Source: Bacillota bacterium
GTDB taxonomy: Bacteria; Bacillota; Clostridia; Oscillospirales; Feifaniaceae
Length of the DNA: 39,896 nt
Assembly (NCBI GenBank): GCA_030705925.1
Contig: JAUZPM010000016.1
Span: 1 to 39,896, forward strand
Direction of reading: 5' to 3'
Below are positions 6,137 through 37,431 of the stretch, one piece after another. The position numbers and the translations under genes were made by a program. Numbering within the stretch: the first letter of the stretch is position 1; every line of letters starts with the position of its first letter. The notes under the pieces were generated by a model, which ran no database searches, had not been told where the DNA came from, and saw only the letters and a list, made by a program, of their open reading frames with translations.

Positions 6137-6212
6137 GGGGGCGTAGCTCAGCTGGGAGAGCGTACGGTTCGCATCCGTAAGGTCGAGAGTTCGATCCTCT
6201 TCGTCTCCACCA
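6137..6212 (+). tRNA. tRNA-Ala (anticodon CGC)
   Basis: A 76-base cloverleaf with encoded CCA. Acceptor stem GGGGGCG/CGTCTCC contains two G-U pairs; anticodon stem TACGG/CCGTA; loop TTCGCAT gives anticodon CGC for the GCG codon. The T-loop TTCGATC is canonical. This is the last clearly chromosomal gene before the accessory island, and its 3' end is a plausible attachment site for a mobile element. Confidence 0.95.
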
Positions 6213-7452: not shown

Positions 7453-7893
7453 CTATTGAAAGCATTCCTCATATTTAGTGTCCATCTCATCAATTAAATT
7501 CCAGAGTATTGACTCCTCGTCTTGTTTTTTAATATTAGAGAGCCAATTATTGATGATATTGAATCCCGTATTAGCATATGCCTGTGCAATCGCGAAAGCT
7601 TCATCCTTGTCACTTATTTTTTCCTCTTCGTTTCTTTTCCGCATCTCATCAACGAGAAGTGAATATATGATTGACATCGCGCCTTCGTTGTTTAATATAG
7701 AGCTTTCTAGTATAAAGCCATGTAAGGAGGAAATAGGCGTCTTTTTTTCAACCTTAACGCCAAGTGCCATTGCAAATAGGAATAACTCAATTCTATCGAC
7801 AGAACTCTTATCTAAACCCAAGAACTTAGTTTTATCAATAATTGGAATCGTTATATCATTAATCTTTTTATCAATGCTAAGTCTATCTGCCAT
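7453..7893 (-). CDS. small helical protein, DndE-like by position
   Basis: A 146-residue, mostly helical, acidic protein. The start at 7893 is chosen because GGGAGGCG precedes it; an in-frame extension upstream to 7926 lies inside the preceding gene. It begins one base after the stop codon of the DndD-like ATPase, so translation is coupled. In phosphorothioation (dnd) clusters, dndE follows dndD and encodes a small helical DNA-binding protein. This one shares position, size and helical character (KFLGLDKSSVDRIELFLFAM), but I see no diagnostic DndE motif, so homology is uncertain. A hairpin (AATGCTTT/AAAGCATT, 7444-7466) overlaps the stop codon and may end the transcript. An ABC-system middle component is an alternative reading. 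Confidence 0.65.
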   Translation of the reverse strand: MADRLSIDKKINDITIPIIDKTKFLGLDKSSVDRIELFLFAMALGVKVEKKTPISSLHGFILESSILNNEGAMSIIYSLLVDEMRKRNEEEKISDKDEAFAIAQAYANTGFNIINNWLSNIKKQDEESILWNLIDEMDTKYEECFQ

Positions 7894-7894
7894 G

Positions 7895-9859
7895 TTAATA
7901 CGCCTCCCGCTGAGTAACTTCTTCATCCGGACTTATAAGCTTATTATAACTTGATAGGACTTCCGAGTTAAAATATTTGCTAATTTCAGTGGAGAATTCT
8001 GATGGAGTGAATGCAAGGATAAGCTGCTTTTTCTCACTTACCGTAATTAGTGACTTTGCAAAGTTTTCCCTGTTAATATCCGAGACTCTGCCAACTGGAG
8101 TATCAATAAACAACAAGCAATCATGACCTGATACGCGATGTAATGCAATTGTAAAGGCAAGTGCTAGTAACTCACGCTCAGCAGCGCTGCAGCTACCCAG
8201 GCAAGATTCTTTTGTTATCTTATGAAACAACCGCAACTTATAGTCATCACTAAGCTCAATATGTCCATACGTGTTTTTCTTCCAGATCAGTTCCTCAAAC
8301 AGATCCATCGTTTCTGTTTCCATTTGCATCCGGACTTCGGTAATAATCTCATTTTCAATAGAAGCTACAATTCCTTTAGCTTCAGTTGCGAAGTTAAGCT
8401 GACTCTTTATTTCTTCACACTTGTCACTATCAGATATAGCCGCATCCAGTTTAGCGTTAATTGAAGCAATCTCAGTATCTAGAATTCCGATTTGGTTTTT
8501 ATAGGAGCCAATTTTCTCACTATTGATGCGTAAGAGATCTCTGTTTTCTTCTCGCTGTTGCATCCAAAGTTCGATATTTTCTACGCTCGAACAAGTGCTT
8601 ATTCGTTTATATAGTTCTTCATTTTCCGCAGTTAATGATGCAATATGTTCGTCAAGTTCACGTATGCTTGAGAAAATTTCTTTCTTGTCGTCCATATAGT
8701 TTGACGCTTCCTTGCAAGCACGGGAGACATCATTCTTAATCTCCACCAACTTATGTGATACAGTCGTAGATACTTCAAACTTATCAATTAATGATTTTAA
8801 ATAATCCTCTGCCGCTTTGTTAATTGTGTTCTTGCAGATCACGCATTCATGGTGTGTTAAGCTGTCCTTTATTAAATCAATGTTGATATCCGGAGGAAGG
8901 ACACCCTTTTGAAATTTAGCCTGAATATACTTATCTGTTGCTTTATTAGTGTCGTACATCATCAACAAAACATAATACTTTCTAATCAGTTCGAGAAGTT
9001 TTGTGGACTGCTTTTTTCTTGCATCTGTATATTCGTTGATCAGTTTAAGATTATCATTATACCTCAGATTATCACCAACAACCGATTCTGTTCCTGATAT
9101 CCGCTGGTCTAGGGTTGCAATAACATCATTTGATTCTTTTATACTTGCCTCAAGAGCAGCTATCTCGTCTGTCAATTTTTTTCTCTCGGTCTTTTTGGTT
9201 GTTATATCGGCAGTAAAAATATCAATTTTTGGATTCATTTTTGCGATAGATTTTTGATACTCCTCAATTATCTTTTCCAGATGAATGCGAACATTAGAGA
9301 CGACGCTGATTTGCGCAATCTCGTGTATCGAATCCCTTACATGCGTAGTAGCTTGTCCTTTGCCAAAGTAATTATGCAATTGTTCACCATCAAAAAAGAA
9401 GTACTGTCTGATCTTTTGTGGAAGATATTGATTTACTATCTCGCGAGCTTCATCGTTCTCAAGGATTTCAGTGTTACCAGTTGAATCAGTTACGGCTGCA
9501 CGAAATAAATCTCTATCAGGGAAGTATGTAGACACGTCAATCGCAACACTGCGATCAAATGCAATCTTACAATTGTTAGCAATAGTGTTAATGCGGACAG
9601 AAACAATCGCACTCTTTTCACCTTTTTCACGTGCTTCAACGAGTGCCGCATGGTTGCAGATAGTTAAGCTATCATCCTTATCACCAAGGTGCGGTTCATC
9701 TCCATAAAGGCACCAGTTAATCGCATTCAACATATTCGTCTTACCAATACCATTTGATGCAACAATGACATGCAGATCGGTGCATTTACTGCGAGGGAAG
9801 GAAATGTTGATTGCTTTATATTGCCGGTAATTGGATATAACGATAGAATCGAACCTCAT
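7895..9859 (-). CDS. DndD/Rad50-like zinc-hook ABC ATPase
   Basis: A 654-residue SMC/Rad50-type ATPase. An N-terminal P-loop ASNGIGKTN (residues 34-42) follows a typical ISNYRQYKAINISF opening. QYFFFDGEQLHNYF (152-165) is a hallmark segment of DndD-type ATPases. Two long coiled-coil arms flank a zinc hook CVIC (339-342). An ABC signature-like SAAERELLAL and a Walker B/D-loop FIDTPVGRVSD (about 584-594) close the C-terminal half. Such proteins hold DNA ends or strands and hydrolyse ATP in DNA modification, repair or defence. The ATG overlaps the end of the 61-residue gene by 4 bases and the stop is 1 base before the next start, so the product is made with its neighbours in fixed proportion. 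No dndC or dndB gene is nearby, so a phosphorothioation role cannot be assumed. Confidence 0.88.
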   Translation of the reverse strand: MRFDSIVISNYRQYKAINISFPRSKCTDLHVIVASNGIGKTNMLNAINWCLYGDEPHLGDKDDSLTICNHAALVEAREKGEKSAIVSVRINTIANNCKIAFDRSVAIDVSTYFPDRDLFRAAVTDSTGNTEILENDEAREIVNQYLPQKIRQYFFFDGEQLHNYFGKGQATTHVRDSIHEIAQISVVSNVRIHLEKIIEEYQKSIAKMNPKIDIFTADITTKKTERKKLTDEIAALEASIKESNDVIATLDQRISGTESVVGDNLRYNDNLKLINEYTDARKKQSTKLLELIRKYYVLLMMYDTNKATDKYIQAKFQKGVLPPDINIDLIKDSLTHHECVICKNTINKAAEDYLKSLIDKFEVSTTVSHKLVEIKNDVSRACKEASNYMDDKKEIFSSIRELDEHIASLTAENEELYKRISTCSSVENIELWMQQREENRDLLRINSEKIGSYKNQIGILDTEIASINAKLDAAISDSDKCEEIKSQLNFATEAKGIVASIENEIITEVRMQMETETMDLFEELIWKKNTYGHIELSDDYKLRLFHKITKESCLGSCSAAERELLALAFTIALHRVSGHDCLLFIDTPVGRVSDINRENFAKSLITVSEKKQLILAFTPSEFSTEISKYFNSEVLSSYNKLISPDEEVTQREAY

Positions 9860-10041
9860 TTGTTATCGCCACCTATCTGCTCACGTTTCTTAGCGCCCTT
9901 TTCAACTTCGGCGCTATAAAACTTTGAATACTGTTTACCTTCAGATTCATTTGTCATGATTGCAACCAAAAAGTCATACATAATGACATCCCCAGCAGTT
10001 TTGCTTTCCAACTTTTCCAGGATTATAGGATTCTGTATCAT
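9856..10041 (-). CDS. 61-residue linker protein of the accessory operon
   Basis: A short soluble protein, hydrophobic-helical in its first half (SKTAGDVIMYDFLVAIMTN) and lysine-rich at the end (EKGAKKREQ). Its ATG overlaps the helicase stop codon (ATGA) and its own stop overlaps the ATPase start by 4 bases. Such double overlap implies strict translational coupling and argues strongly for a real gene despite its size. It could bridge the helicase and the ATPase, like the small middle components of ABC-ATPase conflict systems. No motif is recognised. Confidence 0.7.
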   Translation of the reverse strand: MIQNPIILEKLESKTAGDVIMYDFLVAIMTNESEGKQYSKFYSAEVEKGAKKREQIGGDNK

Positions 10042-12170
10042 ACAATTCCTCCGAGTATTTTATATATCAAGTTTAATACGCTTGAATTGTTCAAGGCATT
10101 AACCGACAGGTCCTTAACTCTCTCCATCTCTTTTTCAAAGATTTTCCGTTCCAGCTTCACCATAATATCTTCTTTATAACCCGAAAGATCGGGCCTAATA
10201 ATCAAATCATAAATATCAGCCTGATTTTTTCCAGGAGCTTGCCTAATAATTCGGCCGATACGCTGAATATATTCACGCGGGTTCGTACTACTTGCCATAA
10301 CAATAGCACGTTTTGCCGAAGGGATATCAATACCTTCATCAAGACACTTTATAGCAACAAGTACCATGTACTCCCCTGAAATGAATCTTTTTATTAGGTA
10401 TTCACGTTCTGAAACCCCTCCGTATTTTGAAGATGGTATCGTTGATTCAGCCTGAGTAAATCTATGTGCTGTAATGTTTCTGCGTCCCATAATTCTCATA
10501 ACACGATCAATCTGGTCGTCTGACACAAAAATAATAGTATCAGAAATGTCATTGCCAATTTCATCAAGGATCAACTCAAGCTCGGAGTATTTATTTTCTG
10601 CATTTTTCTCAAGTTCTGCGCGTCTAAATAGCAAGAACTGTAAAGCCTGTTCCGAATCGCCGCTGTGTATTTGACTGATTTTAGTAATCTTATCAGATAG
10701 CTGTTTATATTCACTTAATTCGTCATCAGTCAAGTTAATGAAATGCGGATGATAACGATAATTAACCAAGAAAGTTTTACTCGTAATCGGATTTATAGTA
10801 GTTAGTGCATCCTGTATGTTGAACTTAAAAGAGACATTTCCAAAATAATCCTCGATTAGCTTACTGCCCTCGTCGTCAAACCAGCGTGAAGGGGTCGCAC
10901 TAAGACCCAACCGACACTGGTAAGACTCCAGCAATCCCTGTCTGGTTTTTGCAGCTCCCATTCCGTGTACTTCGTCACCAATGAAGAACTTCATTATTCT
11001 GGCGCTACATCCATTTATAATAGCTACAAAATCGCCATCACTGCATGTTTGATGCGTTGTGTATATTACTAAATTCCTATAAAAACCTGAGGAGAGTTTT
11101 TTTATTTCTTTGTCAAGAGAAGCACGCCAGTTATGAATTGTTCCATCGCAAACCATACTACCATCAATCGAAGTATTTAAACTTTCTATATCATTTTTCC
11201 ACTGTATAGACAGTATATTCTGCGGGCATGCAATTACAGCTAATACCGGATGTGTTTCAGTCCTGAGTAACTCTTGCATACAGCCTATTGCAGTACGGGT
11301 CTTCCCGCACCCAGTGGCCATCTCTAGCAATAACCTTTTGTTAGAATCTTCCCACTTATTTACAGCATTTTTCTGATAGAAAAATAGTTTCAAGTCTTGC
11401 TTAGCTTTTGTCAAATAGTCCCGGTGCCTGCTTGTGTAGTATTTTTTTAATGCGATTGAGTCCTTTGAAAAGTCTGCGCCTGTTTCAATTAGTTTTTCAT
11501 AGACTGCTGTTGGCAAGTCGACAACTCTTACGCCTGCGCGCTTGTTGTCCCAAAAGTCTTCGAATTTATTCTGATCTTCCGTAAAATATATCTTTTGCCC
11601 TGGTTCCCATTGCTTGAAAACCTTAAATTCCTCAATGTTCTCAAGCCACCCAGATGCGCTTTCATTATTGGAACCACTGAATGAAACCCCATTAAAATCT
11701 TCATCGTATAGGATTCCAACCTTCTGATGCATTATAGAGTGAGAAGCTGTTTTATCACTGTTGCTGATCTTCCCTTTTTCGTAGACCAGTGCAATTTTAA
11801 TCTGCAAATAACCCTCAGCCAGCATCCACCCTAATGCTGAAATGTGGTCATGTTGAAACTGGTCTTGTACTTGCGAAAGGTCATATATAAGTCTTTTAGA
11901 TAGAATGCTATCCGTATCATTTACAGCGATGTTAATGATATCAGCATCTTCTTTGCTAAGACGTGGACATGTTATCAAACGCATTTTCCCTCCGCGTTCA
12001 ATCAGTGCAGCAAGACCCCGTGCTGCAAGCGCTAGACTTGTCGAAGAGAAAAATCCCGTTATTCTGTCATAGCGCTGCGCATAGGAAAGCATCGGGATAT
12101 AAAAATCCCAAAGTAAATCATCTTTTTCAGATTCGTATGAATATTTGAGTTGAATATCCCGAAAGTTCAT
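10038..12170 (-). CDS. PLD-nuclease/SF2-helicase fusion
   Basis: A 710-residue two-part protein. The N-terminal 210 residues form a phospholipase D-type nuclease domain with a single HKD-like motif: HQK at 148-150, then Asp and GSNNES at 166-171. From about residue 260 comes a superfamily 2 helicase: Walker A ATGCGKT (285-291), DEVH box (399-402), SATPSRW (424-429), and a late motif VI REYIQRIGRIIRQ. The layout matches COG1061/Res-type DNA helicases fused to HKD nucleases that occur in restriction and defence loci. A single HKD motif implies that the enzyme acts as a dimer. It starts 3 bases after the preceding stop codon (GGGGATAAG ribosome site) and overlaps the next gene by 4 bases. Confidence 0.88.
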   Translation of the reverse strand: MNFRDIQLKYSYESEKDDLLWDFYIPMLSYAQRYDRITGFFSSTSLALAARGLAALIERGGKMRLITCPRLSKEDADIINIAVNDTDSILSKRLIYDLSQVQDQFQHDHISALGWMLAEGYLQIKIALVYEKGKISNSDKTASHSIMHQKVGILYDEDFNGVSFSGSNNESASGWLENIEEFKVFKQWEPGQKIYFTEDQNKFEDFWDNKRAGVRVVDLPTAVYEKLIETGADFSKDSIALKKYYTSRHRDYLTKAKQDLKLFFYQKNAVNKWEDSNKRLLLEMATGCGKTRTAIGCMQELLRTETHPVLAVIACPQNILSIQWKNDIESLNTSIDGSMVCDGTIHNWRASLDKEIKKLSSGFYRNLVIYTTHQTCSDGDFVAIINGCSARIMKFFIGDEVHGMGAAKTRQGLLESYQCRLGLSATPSRWFDDEGSKLIEDYFGNVSFKFNIQDALTTINPITSKTFLVNYRYHPHFINLTDDELSEYKQLSDKITKISQIHSGDSEQALQFLLFRRAELEKNAENKYSELELILDEIGNDISDTIIFVSDDQIDRVMRIMGRRNITAHRFTQAESTIPSSKYGGVSEREYLIKRFISGEYMVLVAIKCLDEGIDIPSAKRAIVMASSTNPREYIQRIGRIIRQAPGKNQADIYDLIIRPDLSGYKEDIMVKLERKIFEKEMERVKDLSVNALNNSSVLNLIYKILGGIV

Positions 12171-12173
12171 ATC

Positions 12174-12821
12174 TTATCCCCACACAATATTATTGAGCCG
12201 GTGTTGCATTTCAACTCCAGCATTATCCATTATATACTGCAGCAGCTCTCTGATATTAGATCTTCTCCTCAGCATCGTTGATTTCGAAAGATATCGCAAC
12301 ATATATTCAGCTATATTAAACGTACTATCTTCCGCCAGTATAAGTGCCTGCTGTATTAGCGGTATTCTCAAAGCAAGTTTTTTCTTAATATTAGAGCGCT
12401 TAGCAGAACTTTCAGTTAAATAGTAGGCCATGCCCAAATCTGTAGCTGCAAGTGGTTTTATCTCTGTCGTTAATCCCAACTGTGCTGCTAGTTTATAATG
12501 ATTTTCTCCATACTTGACACGTGCACCGGCTTTTGCATTTTTTGAACAAAGATAATATCCAATCTTTTCGTGATTTAGATCTTCCATTCTGGAATCTATA
12601 ACCACACGTAAAACTGAGAAGATTTCATCAGCTTTGCTGAACTGCGGAATATTGGCAGATGTAATAGGTAAAAGAATGGGCTGATTTTGATCTATAATCT
12701 TAAAAATATCCTCAACCGATGTATTAAGAATAAGCTCTATTACTTCAAAGGCATCCAAATCTGCATCAGGACATTGCGTCACATAAAGCCTTTTTAGAGC
12801 TTCGAAATCTGTCGTTGTCAT
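12174..12821 (-). CDS. helical protein, possible winged-helix/DUF7226-like module
   Basis: A 215-residue protein without catalytic motifs. An N-terminal helical part (1-45) is followed by LLPITSANIPQFSKADEIFSVL (about 50-71) and a segment with helix-turn-helix character (NHEKIGYYLCSKN...GARVKYGENHYKLAAQLGLT, 83-118), then a basic C-terminal helical region with several Arg/Lys clusters. Similar modules accompany restriction enzymes and helicases and may recognise DNA; the DUF7226 comparison is from memory of the pattern and uncertain. It lies 42 bases after the radical SAM gene and 3 bases before the helicase gene, so it probably works with the helicase. AAAGGA lies about 10 bases before the ATG. 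Confidence 0.7.
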   Translation of the reverse strand: MTTTDFEALKRLYVTQCPDADLDAFEVIELILNTSVEDIFKIIDQNQPILLPITSANIPQFSKADEIFSVLRVVIDSRMEDLNHEKIGYYLCSKNAKAGARVKYGENHYKLAAQLGLTTEIKPLAATDLGMAYYLTESSAKRSNIKKKLALRIPLIQQALILAEDSTFNIAEYMLRYLSKSTMLRRRSNIRELLQYIMDNAGVEMQHRLNNIVWG

Positions 12822-23194: not shown

Positions 23195-23851
23195 CTATGA
23201 CGGCATGGTAAGCACCTGACCCGGATAGATCAGGCTTGGATCTTTGATCTTGTCTTTGTTCAGAGCGTATATTTCGGTGTATCGTGCGCCGTTTCCAAGA
23301 TATTTCTTAGCGATATTCCAAAGAAGATCCCCTTTTTTCACAGTGTATGTGCTCATTTTGGGCGCTGTCGCTGTGTCTCTTGCCGTTTCGACTGTCGCTG
23401 CCGTCTTATTGTCGTTAAGCTGAACGGTCTTAGTCGTGTATTCCCTATACTGCTTTAGCTCTATGGAAACGGTTATGTCCAAACCCTCTCCGGCATCATC
23501 TGTAACGTCATACGATTCCAGTGACACGGTGATGTTGGTGTCAAATAGAAGCTTTCCGCCCTGTGTGACCCTTGAGCAAACAAACTGGAACGGCGACCTG
23601 CTGTCCTTTAGCTGTTCCAGCTTATCAAGGTAAAAGTCCGCTTCCTTGAATCCGTCAGGATAAACGGCAAACGGGTATTTGACCTGTGGAAGGATCGCTT
23701 CAAAACTGACTTCGGTAAGCCCCGCAGATTTCAGTATATTGATCTCGCCGTCATTGATAAGATTTATGGTTTTGTTCTGGTTTTTTATCTTCATAGATAT
23801 TTTAGAAGGGGCGACAGGCAATGCCACCCCGTCCAAGAATATAGTGTACAT
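23195..23851 (-). CDS. LysM-domain tail protein (XkdP-like)
   Basis: A 218-residue protein. Residues 1-150 are the XkdP-type phage domain (FLDGVALPVAPSKISMKIKNQ). The C-terminal LysM domain (TYTVKKGDLLWNIAKKYLGNG ... LIYPGQVLTMPS) binds peptidoglycan-like glycans and links tube tip to hub. The ATG overlaps the stop of the tape measure gene (TAATG). Confidence 0.9.
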   Translation of the reverse strand: MYTIFLDGVALPVAPSKISMKIKNQNKTINLINDGEINILKSAGLTEVSFEAILPQVKYPFAVYPDGFKEADFYLDKLEQLKDSRSPFQFVCSRVTQGGKLLFDTNITVSLESYDVTDDAGEGLDITVSIELKQYREYTTKTVQLNDNKTAATVETARDTATAPKMSTYTVKKGDLLWNIAKKYLGNGARYTEIYALNKDKIKDPSLIYPGQVLTMPS

Positions 23852-26022
23852 TAAGCGCTCGCCCCTTCCGCTGCCGCCGACATTGTCTCATATACCTTAT
23901 CTTCCAGATATGAAACTATGCCGTCAAGATCCATGCCGGAGCTTACATTATTGTTGTTTACCATATCCACCTTGATTTCAGCCGTCGTAAACCTGTTCAC
24001 TGCTTCCTGCTCCGCAATATCACGCAGATACTTCAGATCTTCCTCAGACGTCTGCATATTGTCTTTCATGGAAGCCGTGTTCTCCGCAGTAGATGCACCG
24101 TTGTTTTTGATGTTGTCAAGGGTGTCGTCAATGCCTCCGAGCCCGTTTCCCAGATCACCAAGACCATCATATCCATCAAGGCCGCCAAGAGCGTCTTTTG
24201 AATTTTTAAGGATATTCTTAAAAGAAAGTTTGCCATCAAGGTTTTTGCCAAAGTTATATCCAGTGTCCCACGCTTTGCCGTAATCAAAATGATAGTTGAT
24301 CTGAGGCGCTTTCCTCTCCAGCGTTATAGCCTTGTCATTTTTGCCCCAGCTAAGAACACTGCTCTGTAAAGATTCAATCTTTGCGGTCAAATCCTTTCCC
24401 GTAATAGAGTCAATGACTTTTGTAGCTATTTTTCCAAAAGATAAGACCCATGAAATGAGCTGACCGATCAGATTTATAGCCGCGTCTTTCAAACTGTCAA
24501 AACCGCCGTTAGTGACATTCAAAATCCATTCAATGATACCAATGAAAGGCTCTACAAAACGTGTATAGAGACATTGGAGGATTTCGTTGATTACTCCTAT
24601 GACCAAGTTGCCGATAAAGGCGGCCGCATAAAGGAAAGCCCCGCAGATGAGCCCGGTTGCGCTCAAGCTTTTCCCTGTAAAATGGTTCACCGCCGCCACA
24701 GCCGCGTAAAATATCACTATAAGTGCGATTATAGCAAGGATGATCCATGTTATCGGGCAGGCTAACAAAGCGGCGTTAAGTCCATCTTGCGCAATGACAT
24801 TTGCCCATGTGGCTTTCGTGTCTTTGTCAATCATGCCGGTTTTGAACGCCTTTGCCGCAGCGCTAACCTTCTCCACAAATGCCTGATAGGCAATCACTCC
24901 GTTTGTTATAAGTGCAATCGTTTTATATGCCGCCATGGCAAAAACGATGCCCCAGAGTACAGGCACTATCGAGCCCCAGTTATCGGCTATCCCGTTTGCC
25001 ATCGAGGTCATTATATTGAATACCCATAGCGCCACTGCGGCGATTATTACGAGACTGCCCACGAAATCATTGACGAACGTCTGAAACTTCGGGCTGTTTG
25101 CGATAGTGCTTATCTTCTGCAAAATAGGCTGAAAAGCTATGATTGCCCTGTTTTTTATATCAGTCCAGATGTCCCCGATAGTTTTAGGCAGCTCCGCAAA
25201 GCGAGCATTCGTCTGATCAGCCGCCGCGAACATGGCATTCTTTATAATGTCAGATGTGATCTTGCCGTCAGCTGACAACTGTTTCATTTCGCCCATAGGC
25301 TTCTTTAAATAATCGGCTATGGATTGCGCCAGCAGCGGAGCATTCTCCATGATAGAGCGGAACTCGTCGCCCTGAAGCTTTCCCGACGCCATAGCCTGTG
25401 TCAGCTGATACATTCCGGCAGTCTGTTCTTCCACGCTTGCGCCGCCTATTTTAAAGTTCTTGTTCATAAGTTCCGTGAAAAGGACCATTTCTTTTGAGTT
25501 TTTGAATGCGTCCCGTGACAATATCCCAAGTTTAGAGACAGCGTTTGCCGTATCGATATATGATGCCCTTGACCGCTGAGCAGAATTAAATATTTCCTTC
25601 TGCAGATCTGCCGTAGACTGCAGTTTGTCCTTCATCAGCCCCAGTCTCGCCGTTGTAAGCGTCATCTGATCCGAAAGGTCAAACACCTGTTTAGCGCCAA
25701 AAGCCGCACCCAGAGAAGCGGCGATCCCCATTATTTTTGATTTCAACCCCTGGGCTATGCCTCCGCCGCTCTCCATGGATCTGTTGAACTGCTGTTCTGA
25801 GCCGTTCGCCGAGCGTATCTCCTGCTCGATCTTGCCAAATGACGCTTCCGCCTTTGACATCTCTTCTCTTGCCGCCTTGATACTGCTGGTATCAACGGCA
25901 TTATGCGAAGCCTTCTGAACGGCTTCAAAGCTGTTCAAAGTAATGTCGATAGCTTTTGTCATGCTTCTGAAAGCCGGGGTCATTCCGTCCATGATCTGAA
26001 TGGATGTCCTGATCGTTCCCAT
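23851..26022 (-). CDS. tail tape measure protein
   Basis: A 723-residue protein that sets tail length. The start at 26022 gives MGTIRTSIQIMDGMTPAFRSM, the usual N-terminus, and follows AGGTGGAAAG; an upstream in-frame ATG at 26070 overlaps the end of the frameshifted chaperone and lacks a ribosome site. A helical N-terminal part is followed by the tape-measure core (LTTARLGLMKDKL..., MENAPLLAQSIADYLKKPMGEMKQL), then several hydrophobic segments (around residues 340-510) and a Gly-rich helical C-terminus. The gene is short for a tape measure, implying a tail of roughly 100 nm. Confidence 0.9.
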   Translation of the reverse strand: MGTIRTSIQIMDGMTPAFRSMTKAIDITLNSFEAVQKASHNAVDTSSIKAAREEMSKAEASFGKIEQEIRSANGSEQQFNRSMESGGGIAQGLKSKIMGIAASLGAAFGAKQVFDLSDQMTLTTARLGLMKDKLQSTADLQKEIFNSAQRSRASYIDTANAVSKLGILSRDAFKNSKEMVLFTELMNKNFKIGGASVEEQTAGMYQLTQAMASGKLQGDEFRSIMENAPLLAQSIADYLKKPMGEMKQLSADGKITSDIIKNAMFAAADQTNARFAELPKTIGDIWTDIKNRAIIAFQPILQKISTIANSPKFQTFVNDFVGSLVIIAAVALWVFNIMTSMANGIADNWGSIVPVLWGIVFAMAAYKTIALITNGVIAYQAFVEKVSAAAKAFKTGMIDKDTKATWANVIAQDGLNAALLACPITWIILAIIALIVIFYAAVAAVNHFTGKSLSATGLICGAFLYAAAFIGNLVIGVINEILQCLYTRFVEPFIGIIEWILNVTNGGFDSLKDAAINLIGQLISWVLSFGKIATKVIDSITGKDLTAKIESLQSSVLSWGKNDKAITLERKAPQINYHFDYGKAWDTGYNFGKNLDGKLSFKNILKNSKDALGGLDGYDGLGDLGNGLGGIDDTLDNIKNNGASTAENTASMKDNMQTSEEDLKYLRDIAEQEAVNRFTTAEIKVDMVNNNNVSSGMDLDGIVSYLEDKVYETMSAAAEGASA

Positions 26023-26069: not shown

Positions 26070-26680
26070 TTATCTGCTTTTCTTTGCCTTTATTTTTTTA
26101 GCTTCCTTCTGCTCCGCTTCTATCTTCAGCTGGACGGCGGCTATTACAAACGCCTTTTCCTGCTTGTCGAGATTTACGAACTGTGAGGGAAGCATGTGGA
26201 GTTTATGAAGGCAATAATAAGCGATATTCGCTTCAAAATCGCCTTCCTCGATCAGTTTTTTGCTTCTTCCACCGCATCTTCCAGTGTCACGTCAAAGCCG
26301 TTCACTTCTTGGATCTTTGAAAGATAATCCGCATATTCGCCCGGCGTCAGCATGGTTTTAAGAAGTGCGTCCGCCCCCATCGCGCTATATGAATTCTGAA
26401 GCTCCGCGTCGTCAAGGTTCGGAAAAACCGTACACTTTGCGGCAAGCCTTCCAAGATATAAGTTGAAGTCCGTTTCCTGTGTGAACTGGTTCCTCTTACC
26501 CGGTACCTGCACACGCTTAGTGCAGGCTTTTCGCAGTGCTTCATCCTCTGTTGAGGTTATGCATGCGATCTCCCAGGGGATAGGCTGACCGTCACTTCCG
26601 AGGAATCGTTTTGACGCCACGTATTTTATATGATCTACCTTCACAGCATTCTGTGCCAAAAATGCGCTTAGTTCACTCAT
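26070..26680 (-). CDS. tail assembly chaperone, programmed -1 frameshift product
   Basis: A longer form of the chaperone gene, about 203 residues. The 142-residue frame ends ...GCA AAA AAC TGA. Slipping back one base on A AAA AAC at 26255-26261 moves into an open frame of 61 further codons (starting LIEEGDFEANIAYYCLHKLH) that stops at 26070-26072, one base into the in-frame ATG at 26070. The extension has the helical, Lys/Glu-rich character of the T-domain in lambda gpGT-type chaperones. Only a minor fraction of ribosomes would make it. It is not visible as a separate gene because it has no start of its own. Confidence 0.85.
26252..26680 (-). CDS. tail assembly chaperone, short form (XkdN-like)
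   Basis: A 142-residue protein of the PBSX XkdN family (phage tail assembly chaperone). The middle block contains FLGSDGQPIPWEIACI and KRNQFTQETDFNLYLGRLAAKC; the end is TLEDAVEEAKN. It coats the tape measure before tube polymerisation and is absent from the finished tail. The gene lies between tube and tape measure genes and carries a slippery site in its last codons. Confidence 0.85.
   Translation of the reverse strand: MSELSAFLAQNAVKVDHIKYVASKRFLGSDGQPIPWEIACITSTEDEALRKACTKRVQVPGKRNQFTQETDFNLYLGRLAAKCTVFPNLDDAELQNSYSAMGADALLKTMLTPGEYADYLSKIQEVNGFDVTLEDAVEEAKN
26255..26261 (-). promoter_or_regulatory. -1 ribosomal frameshift slippery heptamer
   Basis: On the - strand the heptamer A AAA AAC stands in the correct phase of the chaperone frame (GCA AAA AAC TGA), directly before the stop codon. 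This is one of the classical X XXY YYZ sites. I did not find a strong downstream hairpin by eye, but the adjacent stop codon may help pausing. Confidence 0.85.
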
Positions 26681-26694
26681 CTGTTATCCTCCCA

Positions 26695-27162
26695 TTACAT
26701 TCCTGACAGCATTGAAAACTGTTCAGGCATTTCAAAATCTTCAAATGTGAAATCCATATCCTCATCAAGATACTCGGCATCTGCGTCAAACTTAGCAAGT
26801 ATGCCGCCGTCAACATTGCAGTCTTTCAGTATGATCGTCTGCCTGCCGACGCTGGACGTCGGGTCTTCATTCGTTATCTGGATATCGAAATAAACATCCT
26901 CGCCAGTGTTCTTATACCTATAGAGAAGCTCTCTAAAAATGCTGGTGTTGTAGTGGAATGTCGCTGAGCCTGTGCCTTTCCAGCTTGTAGCCTTGTTCCC
27001 CTTCCCCGTTCTGCCGAGGATAGGAACTTCGCTTTTGTTCTTTTCAAACTTTGCCTCAAGATTGATAGCCTGCATCAGATTGTATCTGTTGCCCTCAATT
27101 GTCACAAAGCATTCCGCCAGAGACGCTGAAACCGCGTCCCTGCCGTTCATTGTATTTGTCAT
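26695..27162 (-). CDS. tail tube protein (XkdM-like)
   Basis: A 155-residue tube protein with the family pattern MNGRDAVSASLAECFVTIEG, the central EVPILGRTGKGNKATSWKGTGSATFHYNTS block and the acidic end DEDMDFTFEDFEMPEQF. It polymerises around the tape measure inside the sheath. Confidence 0.9.
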   Translation of the reverse strand: MTNTMNGRDAVSASLAECFVTIEGNRYNLMQAINLEAKFEKNKSEVPILGRTGKGNKATSWKGTGSATFHYNTSIFRELLYRYKNTGEDVYFDIQITNEDPTSSVGRQTIILKDCNVDGGILAKFDADAEYLDEDMDFTFEDFEMPEQFSMLSGM

Positions 27163-27178: not shown

Positions 27179-28489
27179 TTACTCTACCACAACGGTCATA
27201 TAAAGCTGAGCCATTGCATTGACAGGCGTTACAACGTCGTTTACCACAACAGCCTTTCTGCTGTCTCCCGCCGTTACCGTCACGTCTTCAGCGCTAAAAT
27301 CCTCGATCGCTCTCATGTTCTGCAGATCCTGGTGATGCTTTACAATGTCGTTCCATAAAGAGATCCTCCCGGAAGCGTCATTCGGAACATTGCCAAGATA
27401 CTTTGTGTTGAAGAGTACCGCTATATCGTTCGCGATCTGATCGAGCACTCTGACAGTCTGGTTATTGCCGAAATCCTCTGATTTCTCAGCAGTAACGGAT
27501 GTGAATGTGTTGATATCCTCAAGCACACGCACATCATCACCGACCCTGTGAAACATGAATTTGCCAGACTTAAGCCCGCTTTCAAATGCGTTTTGTGTAT
27601 AGTCGACGTCAACGGTATATTCGCCGTCATACGCCTTGTTTGTGTTGCTCTTATTTACGGCGCACCCGGCTTCAGCGCCGGTCACCCAGTAAACAAGCGA
27701 AGACTCCGCCGCGCCCGTGTCAGTTGCTTTATTCTCAACGGAGATAACGCCCTCATGATCTGCCGATGCCGTTCGGTACAGCACTGTCTGAAATTTAACG
27801 CCAAGTTCATCACGCATACGCTTAGTAAACGCGGTGAAGAGCGCTGTTATATCAGAGCTTACGGATGTACAGCCCAGCGCATTGAATGAATAAGACTCGA
27901 TCTTATCTAAAAATGCCTGGTATGCCGCACCGTCCGGCACGCTTCCATTTGTACCGCCCGTCAGCGGAGTTCCCGCTGTGAGCGTGAGCGTTGCCGATGC
28001 GTTGAAATCGACATAATCGTTGCCCTTAAGCTCGGTTGCCGTGCTGACCGCCTGTGTATCGACCTTTAAGGTTCCGAAGAATGTCGATACATCAAATTTT
28101 GAGCTGTCGTCGACGTTTGTCTGTATCACGATCTTAAGGTCATTGCCCCGTATGCCTGAGTATTTAGCTGTCGCGTATGCGCAAACTGCCTTTACGCCGG
28201 AATTAAGCCTGTAAAAATACCCTTTGCGGATATTCTTGAAAAGATCACGAAGCCCCTTCATTTTGTCGCTGCCATATGGATACCCGAAGACTTTCATTGA
28301 GTCGGCCTGAAAGTTTTCACTGTCCATTTCAAAAACAATGCCCTCAGCGCCCCAGTCGAGTTCCAAGGGCATTGCGGCAATACCTCTCTCCGAAAGCACA
28401 GAGGCCGCTCTCGCAATGCTTACAAAATTGATATAGGAACCGGGAAGCGCTTTGTTCTGTACTGTGAATGTTCCGCCGCCAAGCGCCAT
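27179..28489 (-). CDS. contractile tail sheath protein (XkdK-like)
   Basis: A 436-residue sheath subunit and the main proof of a contractile (myovirus-type) tail. It shows the N-terminal ALPGSYINFVS, the AAMPLELDWG segment and the C-terminal DVTVTAGDSRKAVVVNDVVTPVNAMAQLYMTVVV strand pair that locks neighbours. The ATG follows AAGGTG two bases after the previous stop codon. Confidence 0.92.
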   Translation of the reverse strand: MALGGGTFTVQNKALPGSYINFVSIARAASVLSERGIAAMPLELDWGAEGIVFEMDSENFQADSMKVFGYPYGSDKMKGLRDLFKNIRKGYFYRLNSGVKAVCAYATAKYSGIRGNDLKIVIQTNVDDSSKFDVSTFFGTLKVDTQAVSTATELKGNDYVDFNASATLTLTAGTPLTGGTNGSVPDGAAYQAFLDKIESYSFNALGCTSVSSDITALFTAFTKRMRDELGVKFQTVLYRTASADHEGVISVENKATDTGAAESSLVYWVTGAEAGCAVNKSNTNKAYDGEYTVDVDYTQNAFESGLKSGKFMFHRVGDDVRVLEDINTFTSVTAEKSEDFGNNQTVRVLDQIANDIAVLFNTKYLGNVPNDASGRISLWNDIVKHHQDLQNMRAIEDFSAEDVTVTAGDSRKAVVVNDVVTPVNAMAQLYMTVVVE

Positions 28490-34250: not shown

Positions 34251-35954
34251 CTAACTAAATCCTTTCATAAAAAATTTAACAATTGATTTAGCGACTTTTG
34301 ATTTATGTTTTCCAAAATAATAATTTCCGAAGCTTTGCGCAATTAATTCTTCGCCGCTTTCACTTGCCCGTTGACCAAGTTCATTATATATTTTATGAAA
34401 AATCTCCTCAAAGCTTTCATCTGTAAAAGCTTGCAAGTAGATTTCCTGTGATATTTTTTTACGTTCCGACTGAAAAATCGAAACTTGTATAGATGATAAA
34501 TTTTTCCCATTAACATATCCGGCTCTGTTCAATGCAAGCAGCTGATGTGCCGCATGCCCCAACTCATGAGCAACAAGGCTTCCAATGTTTTCAGTTTGAT
34601 AGCTGATACCCTCTGTATAATGGTCATGAAGCACCTGCATAGTCCCTTTAGTATCTGAAAAACACCCGGAATCAAGCACGACAGAATCAGTGACTTTACC
34701 AGTTCTATCGATACTAAAGCGGTTCTCAGCAACCGCACCGTTCAAGTCTCCGAATGATATATCCGAAACAAAACCATTCAAACCCGGAAAATCTTTGGTG
34801 ACAGTGTCACTTGCTTTTTTGATGTCAGACAGAGTCTTTACAGAAATATCGCCGTTTTCGATGATATGGATATTGTTAGTTCTATATGATTCTATTATAT
34901 CCAGTTTTTCTCTTTCGTCAACTTTACTTGCAAAAGATTTTTTCCAGTCCTTATAGGTCATATCAGACGGGACATCGTATGTCTTGCCTTCACTGTCCCT
35001 TGCGGCTCTTTCACCGTAGTCGTCCTCAAAATAAGGAACTGTGACGGTCCTGCACCAAGGGTGAAAAGGTGGAGCAGTAAGCCCGATCTCATAGTCTTTC
35101 ATTGCAAAGACCTGCCCATCGAGATCCTCACAGATCTCGCTTGTACGCAGATCCAGTGTTGCGACCAGCTGATACTTTTCAACGTCAAGATCATTAAAGC
35201 AGTCTTGCTGTGACTTTGAAGCAAAAAAGGCTGACTCTGTCATGATCAGCCTTCCCGCCTTATTCTTACTTACTGTAAACTGATTTGAGATCCTGTTTAT
35301 TGCCTTTGTCGGTGCATCGCCTCTTATGATCGCCTGGGTGAGCTCCGTGTGAACTGTATTGACAAGCTGCTGCTTATTCGTCCAGCACCTGTCTTTGAAC
35401 GTCTTATTGTCTGCCGTCCATGGCTTAGAAACCACTGCGGAAACTTGCTTTTCATTTAACGGCTGAAGATCCCATCCGACGTTGAAGCCTCTCTGTATCT
35501 CATAGGCGGTATGGTAATAGCCGTCTGAATAGATCTTCCTTGCCAGCTCGTCTATGCCGTCGACCTGATTTCCGAATAACACCTCTGCCTGCTGCTGTAT
35601 CTGCAGTTTCAGCGCTTCAAGTCTTGTTATATGCGCCTTTGCCGAGGCATTTTCAAGTTCCTTCATCCAGCGCTGATCTAGGGCATTCTCTTTTCCGTAT
35701 TTTATGTATTCCTCTATGTCCCACTTTAGTTCCTTAAGCTGACTGCTGTTTAAAAGCCGCTTTGCTTCTAAGAGACTAATTTCATTGTTTTCGGCAAATC
35801 TTCTATACCAGTTTGAAATCTCCTTTTCAACGTTTGCCGCCGCCCTCGTGAACTGTTTTTCCGCTTCTGAATAATAGGCCTGTCCAGTCTTGAGCTGAGC
35901 TTCTTCAAGCATTTCAAAACGCTTCTGCCAGTAATTACGCGCTTTCATTGCCAT
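34251..35954 (-). CDS. minor head protein (SPP1 gp7/Mu F) fused to a zinc metallopeptidase-like domain
   Basis: A 567-residue fusion. Residues 1-330 form a minor head/morphogenesis protein of the SPP1 gp7-Mu F type, visible in VNTVHTELTQAIIRGDAPTKA, MTESAFFASKSQ and CEDLDGQVFAMKDYE...PPFHPWCRT. After a linker, residues 380-567 are a separate domain with the zincin motif HELGH (463-467) and a downstream Glu-rich SGEELIAQSFGNYYFGKH (533-550) that may give the third ligand. The fusion places a possible protease or toxin inside the capsid for injection with DNA. Several nearby ATG/GTG codons exist; 35954 has the best spacing from AGGCGG. It overlaps portal by 20 bases. Confidence 0.85.
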   Translation of the reverse strand: MAMKARNYWQKRFEMLEEAQLKTGQAYYSEAEKQFTRAAANVEKEISNWYRRFAENNEISLLEAKRLLNSSQLKELKWDIEEYIKYGKENALDQRWMKELENASAKAHITRLEALKLQIQQQAEVLFGNQVDGIDELARKIYSDGYYHTAYEIQRGFNVGWDLQPLNEKQVSAVVSKPWTADNKTFKDRCWTNKQQLVNTVHTELTQAIIRGDAPTKAINRISNQFTVSKNKAGRLIMTESAFFASKSQQDCFNDLDVEKYQLVATLDLRTSEICEDLDGQVFAMKDYEIGLTAPPFHPWCRTVTVPYFEDDYGERAARDSEGKTYDVPSDMTYKDWKKSFASKVDEREKLDIIESYRTNNIHIIENGDISVKTLSDIKKASDTVTKDFPGLNGFVSDISFGDLNGAVAENRFSIDRTGKVTDSVVLDSGCFSDTKGTMQVLHDHYTEGISYQTENIGSLVAHELGHAAHQLLALNRAGYVNGKNLSSIQVSIFQSERKKISQEIYLQAFTDESFEEIFHKIYNELGQRASESGEELIAQSFGNYYFGKHKSKVAKSIVKFFMKGFS

Positions 35955-37431
35955 CGCCATCACCGCCTGAAGGTTTTACAGCCCCGAAAGCGCCCTGGTA
36001 TTCATCTATCGACTCTTGTTTTTCCTTTTTCAGTCTTTCAAGCTCCTTATCGACGTCTGTTGTCCACGGATGCTGTGAAACGATCGTCTCTTCAGAGAGT
36101 ATGCCGACAGACTTTGCGCAGTTGTCTATAGTTTCGGATTCATTGATAAGGATATCCCTGTTGAATATGACTTCTGCATCTTGGCTCTCAAAATTTCCTC
36201 TGCCGGTGTTGGCGAGATGCACATTAATAAACCAAAGCAGTTCCTCAAATGCCGCTTGAAATTCAGTTTCCATGCAGTTTGCGTCAAGGTCTATATCAGA
36301 ATACATAGACTGAATATTCATCTGATTCGGGTTGCCGCTCAATCGGTCATCCTTTGCGTCATACCCTCTGGCGTTTTCTATGAGCGCCTTTTTGAAAAGC
36401 TCAAGGATAGCTTTGTAATTATCGGCGTTCACATCAAGAGTCAGCGTTTCGACTGCGCCGTCAGCTCCGTCCACTGTCTTGACCTTTACAACGCCATACG
36501 TCGCTAAGTTATGTCTGAACTCTGCAAGGTTCGTACCGTCATAGTTTTTAAGCACTAAAATAGTATTCCTTGCATCCTCCTGCATGTTGTTTTCAAAGTC
36601 TGACAGTATGGTATTTATGCCGTCCTGCAAAGACTTCACACGCTTTATGAGCGGCGTTTCCTTGTTGTTGTATTTGAAGGCTATAAGCGGGATCTTAGCC
36701 CAGTTATGCCCGGTTTCATTACCGTCACCGTCCACAACGACCATGTGTGTGCTGCTGGGCTTCTCAATGTCAGGAATAAGAGTGTTATTGCTTAAGATAT
36801 ACCGCTCGATGCCATCCTTTTTATAGATCTCCACCTTTTCGATGATCTTCTCTCTTATCCCTTCGTATGCCTGCACTTCATACAGCCGCACGGCGCAGTC
36901 AAGGATCGTATGCTCGGCGTCTTTCCAAAAAGGGAGGATCTCATACGGATCGAATTTTTTAAAAGACAATTCACCGTTTTCATCGTAATAAGGATGAAGC
37001 CATGCTATACCGCCGTTCAGCGCATCCTCACCTAGATTCTTTAAAGTCCTCTGAAACCGCTTGCTGAAGATCTCTTTCAAAGCATCTGCATAACCGTCAT
37101 CATCGGAATTGAATGTCAGCGGTTTGCCTAATAGGTAATTGACTTTCTGATCCACTATCTTTGCGTACTGATTATCGACTATCTTGTTGTTCGGGAGGTT
37201 ATCTACCTCCTGAGGCAGACCGTCTTTCCCGATCACCGTGCGCTTACGATGCATGATGTCATGTTCGCCGATGTAATACCTCTCGCCGGTTATCATTTCT
37301 TTTCTATGAGGCGAGCGTTTCCATTTTGCTATCTCCAGCTCAAAAAACTGCTTCTCAGTCATGCCGGATGCCGCTCCCCTTGCGATTATCCCTTTAAAAG
37401 CCTCTGGCAAGCCGCCTAAAAAATCAAACAC
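35935..37431 (-). CDS. portal protein (SPP1 gp6-like)
   Basis: A 498-residue dodecameric DNA gate at one capsid vertex. RYYIGEHDIMHRKR, NNKIVDNQYAKIVDQKVNYLLGKP, DALNGGIAWLHPYYD and KIPLIAFKYNNKETPLIKRVKSLQDGIN are family blocks. The GTG at 37431 lies 8 bases after GGGAGG; the in-frame GTG at 37440 overlaps that site and is less likely. Confidence 0.92.
   Translation of the reverse strand: MFDFLGGLPEAFKGIIARGAASGMTEKQFFELEIAKWKRSPHRKEMITGERYYIGEHDIMHRKRTVIGKDGLPQEVDNLPNNKIVDNQYAKIVDQKVNYLLGKPLTFNSDDDGYADALKEIFSKRFQRTLKNLGEDALNGGIAWLHPYYDENGELSFKKFDPYEILPFWKDAEHTILDCAVRLYEVQAYEGIREKIIEKVEIYKKDGIERYILSNNTLIPDIEKPSSTHMVVVDGDGNETGHNWAKIPLIAFKYNNKETPLIKRVKSLQDGINTILSDFENNMQEDARNTILVLKNYDGTNLAEFRHNLATYGVVKVKTVDGADGAVETLTLDVNADNYKAILELFKKALIENARGYDAKDDRLSGNPNQMNIQSMYSDIDLDANCMETEFQAAFEELLWFINVHLANTGRGNFESQDAEVIFNRDILINESETIDNCAKSVGILSEETIVSQHPWTTDVDKELERLKKEKQESIDEYQGAFGAVKPSGGDGDGNESA

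Follow-up and report, generated by a model that had tools for sequence, protein, structure and literature searches.

Among the closest described systems is the G/G-T frameshift of bacteriophage lambda (Levin 1993; Xu 2004, 2013, 2014, as summarised in PMC5009743), in which the rare long form of the chaperone connects the tape measure and the tube protein (PMC5009743). For the HK97-type tail assembly chaperone cluster, slippage of 6-7% was measured in two genes (PMC3711429); XkdN is not mentioned in the main text of that paper. In bacterial IS elements, frameshifting on the heptamer A_AAA_AAC has either been proven or is likely; according to PMC4066793, no stimulator has been established for the proven IS cluster with this heptamer. 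In E. coli, A_AAA_AAC is reported to be a low-efficiency heptamer, while A_AAA_AAG and A_AAA_AAA are stronger (PMC4066793, PMC5009743). No open-access paper treating XkdN frameshifting was found, an earlier mention in the subscription literature being possible (Xu 2004; Pell 2013; Sharma 2011). In a frameshift-finder survey of phages, Abouo and Jimmer among them, the only reported case was another gene, from phage Emery (PMC4168068).

We analysed a stretch of 39,896 nucleotides from a Bacillota bacterium (contig JAUZPM010000016.1), which is called the window here. The gene at 26252-26680 (minus strand) encodes the short, G-like form of a tail assembly chaperone with 142 amino acids. This protein matches PF08890 (Phage_TAC_5) over positions 1-135 of 135 with an E-value of 8.1e-49 (165.5 bits, cut-off 27) and belongs to this family, which bears out the XkdN-type identity proposed in an earlier note on this DNA. 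It also matches phrog_389 (E 1.9e-48), and a solved structure exists among its relatives, that of B. subtilis YqbN (3klu, E 4.7e-17). The neighbouring genes are encoded on the same strand in the order sheath, tube, chaperone, extension and tape measure. The contractile tail sheath gene is located at 27179-28489 (PF17482, E 8.3e-29; PF04984, E 4.7e-28) and the XkdM-type tail tube gene at 26695-27162 (PF09393, E 1.3e-56); the chaperone gene thus lies between the tube gene and the tape measure gene (PF20155, E 6.7e-48; phrog_1068, E 6.9e-218). Together with portal (SPP1 type) and Mu F-like genes further upstream, these genes identify a contractile-tailed prophage.

Some further features of the window were recorded. 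The Mu F-like head protein encoded at 34251-35963 (minus strand) carries PF04233 at residues 202-308 and a long C-terminal part, in which HELGHAAH, a zincin-like HExxH motif, was seen by eye; this part is possibly a MuF-fused enzyme domain. A likely anti-phage defence cassette is located inside or beside the prophage at 7453-12821 (minus strand) and comprises genes for a PbeA-like helicase (E 9e-217) and a PbeC/DndD-like ATPase (E 1.5e-95) as well as two small unknown genes. An Rfam search of the window returned two tRNAs only; tRNA genes are located at 1131-1201 and 6137-6209 (plus strand), the latter just outside the leftmost minus-strand gene (6357), where it could mark the prophage attachment site.

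The 3' end of the chaperone reading frame reads GAA GAA GCA AAA AAC TGA. As the earlier note had described, it contains an in-phase slippery heptamer A_AAA_AAC (26255-26261, minus strand), which is immediately followed by the zero-frame stop codon TGA (26252-26254). The plain string AAAAAAC is ordinary in the window (18 occurrences, 15.2 expected), and the case for frameshifting therefore rests on phase, position and conservation. From the heptamer, 61 codons can be read in the -1 frame (26073-26255, minus strand); they encode a putative T-like domain that reads LIEEGDFEANIAYYCLHKLHMLPSQF...KKSR, and the frame ends with the stop codon TAA at 26070-26072. The last base of this TAA is the first base of an ATG (26070-26068) in the tape measure frame, up to which the tape measure open frame extends. 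The length of the -1 frame and the one-base overlap stand as the earlier note gave them, but this ATG is probably not the tape measure start that is used. The ATG at 26022 is preceded by the Shine-Dalgarno sequence AGGTGG, and the N-terminus M(A/G)TIRTAIQ recurs together with the same upstream sequence in four homologous loci (L003, L020, L022 and L029). Moreover, the best PHROG tape measure profile starts at residue 17 of the long reading frame. The tape measure gene thus probably occupies 23851-26022 (minus strand), which would make the overlap incidental. In four other loci (L002, at +176 to +209, L043, L078 and L086) an extra reading frame of about 170-260 amino acids, often with a hydrophobic start, is located between the extension stop and the expected tape measure gene.

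All 73 homologous loci of an initial set retain the heptamer in phase, followed by a -1 frame that stays open for 50-69 codons. The set was then enlarged with phage records and PF08890 matches from class-wide, phylum-wide and two family-wide genome searches, which yielded 238 distinct readable junctions. A_AAA_AAC is located in phase within the last two codons in 219 of these; A_AAA_AAA was found in nine, and A_AAA_AAT, A_AAA_AAG and G_GGA_AAC in one each. Altogether, 231 of the 238 junctions contain an in-phase slippery heptamer within the last three codons, and all 231 are followed by a -1 extension (46-82 codons, median 60). The earlier note had made its reading depend on the conservation of heptamer and -1 frame in homologues, and both are conserved. 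The zero-frame stop follows the heptamer directly in approximately 90% of the homologues and one codon later in most of the remaining ones. Elsewhere in the chaperone reading frames, in-phase A_AAA_AAC occurs only six times in total (earlier set, 132 reading frames). Synonymous choice is frozen at the heptamer: the third base of the preceding codon is A in 51/51, and the following codons are AAA in 51/51 and AAC in 51/51. Weaker synonymous constraint is also seen at codons -5 to +6 and +13 to +15. Heptamer, phase, -1 frame, extension protein and the place before the tape measure gene are kept down to approximately 25% identity, and a second chaperone copy in the same genome (81% identical) carries the same signal. 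Conservation of the place and phase of the heptamer among these sequences is far beyond chance.

Seven of the 238 junctions were initially called as having no heptamer (L159, L225, L179, L226, L109, L217 and L135). L159 and L225 do carry an in-phase A_AAA_AAC and L179 an A_AAA_AAG, with the zero-frame stop further on; the end of L226 resembles that of L225. L135 and L137 (G167:C2:77002-77325 and 75021-75344) are two PF08890 copies 1.7 kb apart, of which one retains heptamer and extension and the other ends differently, without both. L109 is phage EJ-1 (NC_005294.1), which has one extra A upstream of the heptamer compared to MismyG (approximately at 1880-1900). Because of this one-base difference, chaperone and extension form a single deposited reading frame of 198 amino acids, which is either a natural constitutive fusion or a sequencing error.

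Among close relatives, 67% of the changes in the extension fall on codon position 3, compared to 65% in the chaperone itself. This indicates that the extension evolves as a protein and that the -1 frame is under protein-coding selection. In 217 of the 231 junctions, the extension frame contains no ATG, GTG or TTG before or at extension codon 5, which leaves frameshifting as the only evident way to translate the conserved first part of the extension; in the window the earliest possible start is codon 20, downstream of the conserved LIEEGDFEANIAYYCLHK block. The extension matches PHROGs 20560, 10943, 33439, 28231, 5646 and 2722, all of unknown function, and their profiles start at differing internal points. 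Such starts are expected if gene callers used any start codon lying downstream, and the six families are probably truncated calls of one frameshift domain. Searches of the extension against Pfam and NCBIfam gave no matches, except for one weak PF09550 match among 59 members.

Downstream of the heptamer, the RNA can form a stem. Its 5' arm GAAGGCGAU (26238-26246, minus strand) begins 8 nt after the heptamer and pairs with the 3' arm AUUGCCUUC (26207-26215). Folding of 26170-26254 gave this 9-bp stem together with an inner hairpin in its loop (AAGCGA/UCGCUU, 26219-26233, in the window only), with -20.1 kcal/mol and a z-score of -2.3 against dinucleotide shuffles. Against synonymous shuffles, the window alone is marginal (stem p 0.05, minimum free energy p 0.12). 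Across the family, we shuffled synonymous codons with protein and codon usage fixed and scored stems with a 5' arm starting 4-12 nt downstream of the heptamer. The excess at the slip site has a mean z of 2.08 +/- 0.18 (81 representatives, <75% identity). This stem search was made a posteriori, and the offset control used identical settings: at eleven other offsets the values range from -0.71 to 0.47, with -0.71 just upstream and |z| <=0.5 otherwise. The values for the A_AAA_AAC class of the enlarged set are 2.03 +/- 0.14 for the stem z and -2.45 +/- 0.13 for the folding-energy z (129 representatives, <70% identity), and significant stems begin mostly 6-8 nt after the heptamer. Covariation of the stem is 0.185 in a gap-free alignment of 52 sequences, compared to 0.143 after shuffling (0.185 reached in 0/500) and to at most 0.114 for slid versions. 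Single pairs vary on both sides (A-U 35/G-C 9; A-U 24/G-C 13), and the pairing segments of homologues include GAAGGC/GCCUUC, GGAGGC/GCCUCC, GCAGGGC/GCCCUGC and others alike. Elsewhere in the family, the partner of the 5' arm is another segment 59-75 nt downstream, and approximately one quarter of the A_AAA_AAC junctions have no significant structure. Neither a Shine-Dalgarno-like stimulator upstream (mean z -0.26) nor a pseudoknot between loop and 3' flank gave a signal. For the family, a candidate stimulatory element is thus present at a suitable distance and with covariation, and for the window alone the result is marginal. The stem is an addition to the earlier note, which left a stimulator unmentioned.

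Conservation of heptamer, phase, -1 frame, extension and gene order supports the programmed -1 frameshift of the G/GT type that the note had proposed. We consider it highly probable from this sequence evidence that the chaperone gene of this contractile-tailed prophage uses -1 programmed ribosomal frameshifting to make a G/GT-like pair. Most ribosomes would read GCA AAA AAC and then the stop codon, releasing the 142-residue chaperone. The RNA stem, starting 8 nt downstream, would hold up a minority of them, possibly with help from the adjacent stop codon, so that the Lys and Asn tRNAs could slip back by one base onto AAA AAA. These ribosomes would read 61 more codons and make a 203-residue fusion. 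Slippage presumably occurs at a low rate, and the products may act in tail assembly; by analogy to lambda, the rare long form would link the tape measure and the tube protein. A weak heptamer combined with a stem suits a small fraction of the long form. In virions of phage phiCD508, the XkdN-like gp57 and its small neighbour gp58 were not detected by mass spectrometry (PMC11948020), which is consistent with chaperones that are not part of the virion.

Heptamer type and stem are associated in the family. Members with A_AAA_AAA or A_AAA_AAG have no stem (z 0.08, n=10; representatives -0.19, n=6) and differ in this from the A_AAA_AAC members (Mann-Whitney p 5e-5 for all, 2.5e-4 for representatives). 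The A-run is exactly six in 218 of the 219 A_AAA_AAC junctions, whereas all nine A_AAA_AAA members have a run of nine A. These nine apparently represent one clade, which brings the stem difference close to a single evolutionary event. We noted L216 and L217 in this stem-free A9 side clade, as well as L075, L130, L132, L134, L140, L141, L211 and L240. L216 closely resembles L217 but has A9 where L217 has A8, so that another frame would be required; the reason may be transcriptional slippage, or else a sequencing error in the homopolymer of L217. The absence of the stem suggests a different mode of slippage in the A9 clade, and its long A-run would fit transcriptional slippage. One chaperone family might then use two interchangeable modes, stem-aided ribosomal slippage on the weak A_AAA_AAC in most members and a stem-free, probably transcriptional slippage on A9 in one clade, with the stem kept only where the heptamer needs help. 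We put this forward tentatively, with slightly less than even chances of being right.

For the window, transcriptional slippage would mean that RNA polymerase inserts an extra A while copying the A-run, which fuses the two frames in a part of the mRNAs. The site does consist of an A-run, and the A9 clade, with its missing stem and its A9/A8 pair, looks as expected if transcription slips. However, homopolymers of at least eight are typical for this process, and its direction need not be kept (PMC3711429). A run of about eight or more is found only in the A9 side clade and not in the window; the run of the main class stops at six A and ends in C. In addition, the codon phase does not vary, the shift is always towards -1 and the covarying RNA stem lies at the distance of a ribosomal stimulator, so that we regard polymerase slippage here as very improbable.

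Alternatively, the extension could be an independent short gene that has its own start and makes no fusion; several records do annotate a short reading frame within it, and PHROGs also contains such fragments. This is at odds with the protein conservation, which already sets in at the heptamer, and in 217 of 231 junctions that is ahead of every start codon. The internal positions at which the annotated fragments begin vary, the first possible start in the window is as late as codon 20, and no conserved start with a ribosome-binding site was seen; a separate gene appears even less probable than slippage of the polymerase. Least probable of all is a degraded gene with an incidental A-run. The window does lie in a prophage and the heptamer string by itself is not rare, but decay or chance is refuted because 230 other distinct junctions, isolated phages and the second copy in the genome show the same arrangement. 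Ribosomal frameshifting thus remains by far the preferred reading.

A joined frameshift coding sequence is annotated in none of 14 annotated phage records. Four of them (phiCDKH02, PBP180, Osiris and Abouo) contain a short hypothetical reading frame that ends at the stop of the extension, and EJ-1 has the one fused reading frame; the expectation that ordinary annotation gives the short form only thus holds. This kind of frameshift is textbook knowledge, and the family-wide signal and the stem are useful additions. One predicted frameshift signal, absent from the annotations examined, spans a Firmicute chaperone family that includes relatives in C. difficile, Lactobacillus, Streptococcus and Brevibacillus as well as in PBSX-like phages, and six or more PHROG families without an assigned function would be explained as fragments of the extension domain. 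The many junctions are also a natural data set for testing how heptamer strength and stimulator relate, since they combine an almost invariant heptamer of low strength in E. coli with a stem.

The same A_AAA_AAC heptamer is found in a tail chaperone gene of the haloarchaeal virus HCTV-2 (g-t site, PMC5009743), an archaeal virus that resembles this locus in its heptamer and in the kind of gene. It is also shared with the bacterial IS elements (PMC4066793), where its efficiency in E. coli is low as well, but the genes there encode transposases. The HK97-type tail assembly chaperone cluster (Antonov et al. 2013, PMC3711429) likewise has a predicted phage -1 frameshift and belongs to a different chaperone family. 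As in lambda G/GT, the -1 frameshift is located near the end of a chaperone gene between the tail tube and tape measure genes. By the same likeness, the short product would be in excess and the long product would carry a C-terminal T domain. The lambda heptamer is G_GGA_AAG; unlike lambda, the locus analysed here combines a chaperone of the PF08890 family with the A_AAA_AAC heptamer, a covarying downstream stem and a contractile tail.
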